NCBI GenBank assembly: GCA_902825965.1
Contig: CADEDA010000002.1
Span: 124,001-188,000 of the forward strand
From: an uncultured Gemmatimonadota bacterium
Lineage (GTDB): Bacteria > Gemmatimonadota > Gemmatimonadetes > Gemmatimonadales > Gemmatimonadaceae
DNA length: 64,000 nucleotides
Direction of reading: 5' to 3'
The notes under the pieces are model-generated. The model ran no database searches and had not been told where the DNA came from. It saw only the letters and a list, made by a program, of their open reading frames with translations. Position numbers and translations under genes: made by a program. Below are positions 6,943 through 8,009 of the stretch, in pieces. Within the stretch, counting starts at the first letter, position 1, and every line of letters begins with the position of its first letter.

Positions 6943-6971
6943 TTGCCATCCGTTCATCCGGATATTAGGAT
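6943..6971 (+). promoter_or_regulatory. Putative sigma-70-type promoter of the metF-metH operon
   Basis: TTGCCA at 6943-6948, a 17-nt spacer and TAGGAT at 6966-6971 make a reasonable -35/-10 pair. The local sequence is AT-richer than its surroundings, and initiation about 7 nt downstream would put the transcript start about 10 nt before the SAM-II riboswitch. Call based on motif and position only. Confidence 0.5.
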
Positions 6972-6987
6972 GTATCGACAATCGACT

Positions 6988-7037
6988 CGTGGCGATTTCG
7001 AGGCAACTTGCGGCCACGTTAAACAATCAGCTAAAGC
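6988..7037 (+). promoter_or_regulatory. SAM-II (SAM-alpha) riboswitch upstream of metF-metH
   Basis: The element matches the SAM-II consensus as I know it: a short P1 stem GTGGC (6989-6993) pairing with GCCAC (7013-7017), a GATTT block at the 5' side of the loop (6994-6998), a CTTGCGGCCACG segment, then the hallmark GCCACGTTAAACAA and GCTAAAG (7030-7036), which form the pseudoknotted ligand pocket. It lies between a plausible promoter and the methionine genes metF and metH, the expected regulon. SAM-II elements turn off translation when S-adenosylmethionine is high; here the element ends 10-50 nt before the two candidate metF start codons. A covariance search would settle it. Confidence 0.87.
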
Positions 7038-7088
7038 GCCGGCCCGGTGCGCCTCCTCGCTCCGGGCTTCGTGCGTTCCAGACCCCAC

Positions 7089-8009
7089 GTGAGCTCACTC
7101 GTCCTTCCCGTCCCGTTCCAGGTCTCCTTCGAGTTCTTCCCGCCGAAATCGGCGGAGATGGAGACCACTCTCTGGAACTCGATCACCCGCCTGGCCCCGC
7201 TGGCGCCCCGGTTCGTGTCCGTCACCTACGGTGCGGGCGGCTCCACCCGCGAACGCACGCACCACACGGTGCACCGCATCCTCCACGAGACCGGGCTGGT
7301 GCCGGCGGCGCACCTGACCTGCGTCGCCGCCACCCGCGAGGAGATCGATGCCGTCGCCGACGACTACTGGTCGGTCGGTGTGCGGCATGTGGTCGCCCTG
7401 CGCGGTGACATCCCCGGCGGCGACGGGCCCTACTTCCCCACCCCGGGCGGCTACGCCTACGCCACCGAGCTCGTCGCCGGTCTACGCAAGCGGCACGACT
7501 TCGAGATCTCGGTCGCCGCGTATCCCGAGGTGCACCCGGAGGCCAAGTCCCCGGCGGACGACCTCGACAACCTGAAGCGGAAGATCGACGCCGGGGCGAC
7601 ACGCGCGATCACGCAGTTCTTCTTCGACAACTGGACCTACCTGCGCTTCGTCGACCGGGCGCGGAAGGCCGGCATCACCGTGCCGATCGTCCCGGGCATC
7701 ATGCCGGTGAGCAACTTCACGCAGATGGTGAAGTTCGCGAAGTCCACCGGCGCCACCATCCCTGCGGGGTTCGCGCGCATGTTCGAGGGCCTGGACCACG
7801 ATCCCGAGACGCGCCGGCTCGTCGCCGCGACGGTGGCGGCCGAACAGTGCCAGCAACTCGCCCAGGCCGGGGTCACGGAGTTCCACTTCTACACCTTGAA
7901 CCGCGCCGACCTGACGTACGCCCTCTGCCACGTGCTGGGACTGCGCCCGAGCCCCGCGGGCCCCCGAGGCACGGGGGACCTCGGCCAGCCGCAGGCGGTG
8001 CAGCCATGA
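7089..8009 (+). CDS. metF: 5,10-methylenetetrahydrofolate reductase
   Basis: FAD-dependent reductase making 5-methyl-THF, the methyl donor for MetH. About 306 residues from GTG 7089; an earlier in-frame GTG at 7047 adds 14 residues and lies 10 nt after the riboswitch, and neither has a Shine-Dalgarno. Motifs: [10 protein letters not shown] at the N-terminus with the catalytic Glu, [28 protein letters not shown], the FAD/folate loop [11 protein letters not shown], the [10 protein letters not shown] substrate strand, [13 protein letters not shown] and [12 protein letters not shown]. The stop overlaps the metH start as ATGA, so the two consecutive enzymes of the methionine methyl branch are translationally coupled and share the upstream SAM-II control. 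Confidence 0.96.

Follow-up and report, generated by a model that had tools for sequence, protein, structure and literature searches.

Cellular methylation uses SAM as substrate and releases SAH as product, and the ratio between the two is believed to be defended by the cell. The hosts of SAM-II riboswitches named in the available text of PMC2258182 and PMC1273637 are Proteobacteria and Bacteroidetes/Bacteroides, and the accessible part of PMC9373788 presents an experimental SAM-II study in S. meliloti. For the protein SahR, the published core regulon comprises sahR, ahcY, metH, metH2, metF and metK (available text of PMC4239095), and the SahR of Desulfovibrio is described as binding its operators in a SAH-dependent manner (available text of PMC8877191). 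A predicted overlap of SAM_alpha and SahR has been published for a single operon, the hom-metXC operon of Oceanicaulis alexandrii (PMC4239095, same portion). We found no description of SAM-II in Gemmatimonadota in the open-licence literature searched.

The locus analysed here lies in a stretch of 64,000 nucleotides, referred to below as the window, from a genome that belongs to Gemmatimonadaceae. It combines a SAM-II element and a SahR-type site at one promoter and leader, so the operon that follows, metF-metH, probably reads both SAM and SAH, in a DNA step followed by an RNA step.

The SAM-II leader of metF-metH and its distribution

The sole Rfam match over the gathering threshold on either strand of the 64 kb is RF00521 (SAM_alpha, SAM-II) at 6979-7054 of the forward strand, on which the promoter, dyads, leader elements and genes of metF-metH described below also lie. 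It scores 44.0 bits (gathering score 36 bits; E 1.3e-6) and covers model positions 1-79, the full length of the model, in agreement with the initial annotation, which had proposed a SAM-II riboswitch at about 6943-7089 and whose listed motifs (the stem, GATTT, GCCACGTTAAACAA and GCTAAAG) were all located in the window. P1 consists of six pairs between CGTGGC (6988-6993) and GCCACG (7013-7018); GATTT lies at 6994-6998, GCCACGTTAAACAA is also present, and the conserved GCTAAAG occupies 7030-7036. The P2b strand of the pseudoknot within the P1 loop, GGC (7002-7004), pairs with GCC (7038-7040) in the register seen across the leader set described below, whereas P2a, as read from the sequence, has three pairs only, TTG (7008-7010) with CAA (7024-7026), the latter being found in 103/152 leaders. 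The window aptamer is thus an ordinary member of the known SAM-II class by its sequence, and it is predicted to bind SAM.

Upstream of the aptamer, TTGCCA-N17-TAGGAT (6943-6971) is the sole sigma-70-like match in 6850-7150 in a promoter scan with shuffles (mean of the shuffles 0.0), and a similar layout was judged by eye to precede many relatives. A 268-aa frame at 6129-6935, whose C-terminal part corresponds to a DUF167/YggU domain (PF02594), ends just upstream of this promoter.

The element sits 5' of two methionine pathway genes, metF at 7089-8009 (5,10-methylenetetrahydrofolate reductase; PF02219, 322 bits) and metH at 8006-11701 (cobalamin-dependent methionine synthase; PRK09490, 2119.8 bits, obtained on the longer frame from 7847), which overlap by ATGA at 8006-8009. 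The proposal that a metF-metH operon follows SAM-II in a member of Gemmatimonadota is supported. GTG 7089 is the likely start of metF by comparison with relatives, as ATG occupies this position in one of them (L039). As the initial annotation had noted, no good Shine-Dalgarno sequence precedes GTG 7089 in the window, where CCAGACC is found instead, but this does not extend to the genus, since several congeners have GAGG, GGAG or a similar sequence about 10 nt before the metF start.

Matches to RF00521 (E <= 0.001) are present in 202/298 sampled genomes of the phylum, that of the window included, with 174 over the gathering score, and in 0/14 control genomes. A single-window oddity is ruled out because so many genomes of the phylum match; SAM-II is common in Gemmatimonadota and the window copy is no stray. 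The view that the element lies outside the usual SAM-II lineages holds relative to the available text of PMC2258182 and PMC1273637, but it understated the spread of the class within the phylum. A pattern built on the core from P1 to TTAAA retrieved 61 stretches from named GTDB contigs, all with Gemmatimon- titles. Within the genus, the match is over the Rfam gathering cut-off in 14 of the 15 metF-bearing genomes, and the core letters are also those of the fifteenth (L042). The window's genome also encodes a second copy (39.7 bits, G000:C3:163265-163338), with a hairpin downstream of it, and T makes up 7 of the 9 nt beyond that hairpin; the gene after this copy is a MetX homologue, with TIGR01392 as best match (260.9 bits, model cut-off 500).

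For comparisons of the leaders we assembled 152 distinct SAM-II leaders from 212 loci, requiring a fully paired five-pair P1 core; this set is non-random, as high scorers were favoured and 61 loci were picked by sequence pattern. No leader was obtained from 22 of the 212 loci, namely 18 with weak MetF matches (L057-L074) and four metF loci. P2b pairs in register in 110/152 leaders, as GGC:GCC in 79 (the commonest of the four types and the one in the window), CGC:GCG in 21, GGC:GCT in 8 and AGC:GCT in 2, whereas slid registers pair in 0-20 of 152 with one exception (61), which meets a second, repeated GCC. The gene downstream is metF in 30/152 leaders, and a frame with a homocysteine S-methyltransferase-type N terminus follows in at least 74; NCBIfam searches of downstream frames identified metH at L152 and a bifunctional methyltransferase/MTHFR at L081.

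Several other genes were seen after SAM-II. These are panB (3-methyl-2-oxobutanoate hydroxymethyltransferase), a folate-using gene of pantothenate synthesis, at L017 by NCBIfam and at L003, L021 and L076 by blast cluster; a frame resembling an ATP-grasp ligase at L003 (one of two copies), L127 and L138, from translations read by eye; and a frame resembling threonine synthase at L075, L122, L143, L145 and L148 (blast cluster).

A predicted SahR-type operator and its candidate regulator gene

The promoter named in the initial annotation was recovered, but a dyad within it had been missed. The 16-bp sequence ATCCGTTCATCCGGAT at 6948-6963, of the form ATCCG-N6-CGGAT, occupies the spacer between the -35 and -10 boxes, and is predicted to be a SahR-type operator from its conservation and from its occurrence at a regulator gene. 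Exactly one copy per genome is present in 15/17 genomes of the genus, the window's own included, and all copies are upstream of metF, with 127-162 bp between the end of the dyad and that genome's metF match; a reversed-pattern control gave 0 in all genus genomes. The two genomes lacking the dyad are 71% and 77% complete, and the metF match is also absent from both. All 16 bp are identical in the 15 genus copies, while neighbouring promoter letters vary. A second, overlapping dyad (6954-6973) lies over the -10 box with two mismatches to TCATCCG-N6-CGGATGA; in the remaining metF leaders that carry the operator, it deviates at 1-3 positions.

Across Gemmatimonadaceae the dyad was found in 54/179 genomes from 9/35 genera, at 55 places. 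Fifteen of these are the genus copies, 8 are at the start of the regulator gene by coordinates, and 30 were fetched as loci, comprising 17 metF leaders with SAM-II, 9 sites at the regulator gene and 4 at neither, which sit within frames of other genes as read by eye. A second copy in G244 lies upstream of a glycosyltransferase-like gene (read by eye) with no evident role in methionine metabolism, and the remaining place is in G065. The dyad is present, with at most one mismatch, in 27 of the 30 distinct metF leaders, the exceptions being L052, L053 and L203. In the other 122 leaders it is confined to L185 and L191, where it lies at -72, compared with -29 to -43 in the metF leaders, and has a different core.

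In the window's genome a one-mismatch search gave three further copies of the dyad, two of them inside long open frames, and the metF site is one of eight two-mismatch sites for the 20-bp palindrome. It is conservation that points to metF; within this single genome the palindrome does not distinguish it. A regulon drawn from relaxed palindromes (<=3 mismatches) was rejected as too loose, with 168 sites per strand against 54 for the control. No site with <=2 mismatches was seen near metK (G000:C7:142840) of this genome.

The third near copy (G000:C3:230843-230862) belongs to a palindrome without mismatches, TCATCCG-GATATA-CGGATGA, which overlaps the 5' end of a 327-aa frame. In the encoded protein an ArsR HTH (PF01022, 38.7 bits) is combined with a domain of the methyltransferase type (PF08241, 81.6 bits), and the protein matches an ArsR/SmtB subfamily model of NCBIfam (64.5, over a cut-off of 55); none of the 25 NCBIfam families listed for it bears the name SahR. 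Homologs of this regulator (E <= 1e-20) occur in 147/179 family genomes. In the best 30 of these 147, TCATCCG-N6-CGGATGA is found at the start of the regulator gene, perfect in 24 and with one mismatch in 6, and in all 30 the next gene, in the same orientation, is ahcY, which encodes SAH hydrolase. The palindrome is perfect at the start of the gene in all 15 genus genomes having it, and the ahcY of the window's genome was also found independently (PF05221, 506 bits). An ArsR HTH followed by a C-terminal methyltransferase domain is what we take to be the architecture of SahR. Judged by domains, neighbours and operator, the architecture and core regulon of the regulator are those of SahR, and we predict that it is a SAH-responsive repressor of this type.

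At the four loci where SAM-II was not matched before metF (L050, L054, L055 and L056), a regulator gene with 30-35% identity lies immediately upstream of metF in every case. In a MetF tree of 24 sequences these four loci form one group (support 98/97), and the SAM-II-only loci L052 and L053 form their own (support 99/97); the 18 loci with both controls need two label changes. These groups (SAM-II with the dyad, SAM-II alone, and a co-operonic regulator) thus represent three arrangements of the same operon within one family. Upstream of the co-operonic SahR-type gene of L056, at about 242-264, there is a palindrome, ATATAAAG-N4-CTTTATAT, unlike the ATCCG dyad.

Predicted serial control and its RNA output

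Taken together, these observations lead us to favour, with some reserve, a reading in which metF-metH is controlled twice in series, by SahR in response to SAH at initiation and by SAM-II in response to SAM at expression. The aptamer, the pseudoknot register, the dyads, the domains of the regulator, its link to ahcY and the conservation of all of these are read from the DNA itself; we infer that SAH and SAM are bound, that the promoter is repressed, where the transcript starts, and that the RNA acts by attenuation. A SahR-type repressor, with its ArsR DNA-binding domain and methyltransferase-type SAM/SAH-binding domain and encoded elsewhere beside ahcY, would sit on the dyad over the promoter spacer and the -10 box, blocking initiation until SAH rises. 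Transcription would then start just before P1 of the aptamer. When SAM is plentiful, the pseudoknot would be locked, with its last pair abutting a GC-rich hairpin, and transcription would end before metF; when SAM is low, polymerase would read through and metF and metH would be made together. Two such gates in series would therefore make the operon most active at high SAH and low SAM. We give an even chance to the wider proposal that a methylation-index gate, combining a SAH repressor on DNA and SAM-II on RNA, is conserved in two or more genera of Gemmatimonadaceae, and that sister groups have SAM-II alone or a co-operonic SahR-type gene in its place.

The dual-control reading is least secure at its RNA output. 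The last P2b pair of the window ends at 7040 and a GC-rich, terminator-like hairpin starts at 7041 (7041-7068, -18.3 kcal/mol). When terminator-like is defined as a hairpin of -8 kcal/mol or better with 5 or more T among the 9 nt after it, such a hairpin with a U-rich tail is found in 107/152 leaders, compared with 30/152 dinucleotide shuffles (one shuffle each), because of which attenuation appears to be the likeliest output of SAM-II leaders. Counts are 17/30 for metF leaders and only 2/11 for distinct leaders of the genus, the window's not among them, as its tail TTCGTGCGTT is a poor U-tract with 4 T in the next 9 nt. A strict scan, which requires a GC-rich hairpin with no fewer than 5 T in the 8 nt immediately after it, called no intrinsic terminator at the hairpin of the window leader. 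Plain folding favours this hairpin in the absence of SAM, a proposed competing helix being 9.5 kcal/mol worse, and for this reason a switch in the window leader is something that we can only infer.

That helix, a candidate antiterminator in which 7000-7004 of the P1 loop would pair with 7051-7055 in the loop of the hairpin, is disfavoured by folding energies and is only a lead. In a permutation test on 151 distinct pairs, the matched strands gave -9.43 kcal/mol against a mean of -8.37, better than 2000/2000 permutations, a result inflated by the relatedness of the leaders; applied to the P2b zone, this test yielded -5.44 for matched strands against -6.00, weaker than all 2000 permutations. CGAGGC/GCCTCG alternates with GGAGGC/GCCTCC in the helix, and its sixth pair is broken in several leaders, including that of the window. 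We also observed that GCGC beside the aptamer (7036-7039) can pair in the fold with GTGC after the hairpin (7071-7074), which would extend the hairpin and compete with P2b; this GTGC is kept in the hairpin tails of 13/15 genus loci.

Dual control has to be weighed against readings in which only one of the two inputs works. If plain SAM-II did all the work, the dyad would be a promoter feature or the site of another regulator; the dyad within one mismatch is indeed absent from 123/152 SAM-II leaders, and three metF leaders carry SAM-II alone. We nevertheless consider this improbable given the invariance of the 16 bp in the genus against a varying promoter background, and the presence of the same dyad at the regulator gene beside ahcY in the best 30 loci. 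The converse reading, a decayed element whose aptamer is kept without switching after the SahR-type site has taken over, could draw on the weak U-tract and the short P2a of the window, but the retention of scores over the Rfam gathering cut-off in nearly all metF-bearing genomes of the genus, and of the core letters in L042, makes it the least probable of the alternatives.

A more serious alternative, which we rate only somewhat short of an even chance, concerns the second step and would leave the SahR-type input standing. In this case the SAM-II output would be translational or Rho-dependent rather than intrinsic termination, as might be expected from the degenerate U-tract in the window and most genus leaders, from the silence of the strict scan and from the Shine-Dalgarno sequences kept by several congeners. 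Against it, the metF start codon lies 48 nt beyond the last aptamer pair in P2b, and the hairpin after the second copy in the window's genome, with its run of T, has counterparts in the majority of leaders. The distance of the start codon is also why occlusion of a Shine-Dalgarno sequence by the aptamer was rejected as the main mode; together with the frequency of terminator-like hairpins, it makes such occlusion unlikely.

Significance and relation to known systems

The dual-control reading is new in adding, at the promoter of the riboswitch itself, a second input that acts on DNA, and with it a predicted serial control of metF-metH by SAH and SAM; in addition, SAM-II is extended to a phylum where it is common. 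If the reading is true, one operon reading SAH on DNA and SAM on RNA would form a compact natural sensor of the ratio, for which one protein and a short piece of DNA would suffice in an in vitro test.

The leader resembles the SAM-II elements of Corbino 2005 (available text of PMC1273637) in its core, its P1 and P2 pseudoknot, a promoter a few nt before P1 and a methionine gene downstream. It differs from them in its phylum, Gemmatimonadota, in its target, metF-metH rather than metA, metX or metY, and in the SahR-type dyad of its promoter and its degenerate U-tract. The predicted DNA input resembles the SahR regulon of Leyn 2014 (available text of PMC4239095), with an ArsR-family regulator, a palindrome of about 20 bp at its own gene and the targets sahR, ahcY, metF and metH; unlike that regulon, it shares metF-metH with SAM-II and shows no site with <=2 mismatches near metK, and it is likened to SahR by domains, neighbours and operator. 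Compared with hom-metXC of Oceanicaulis alexandrii, described for one genome and the homoserine branch in the same portion of PMC4239095, the arrangement here concerns metF-metH and is kept in the genus and in a second genus. As in E. coli mntP, one gene would be under both transcriptional regulation and a riboswitch (available text of PMC11647493); there the riboswitch responds to manganese, whereas here the predicted inputs are two related metabolites, SAH and SAM.
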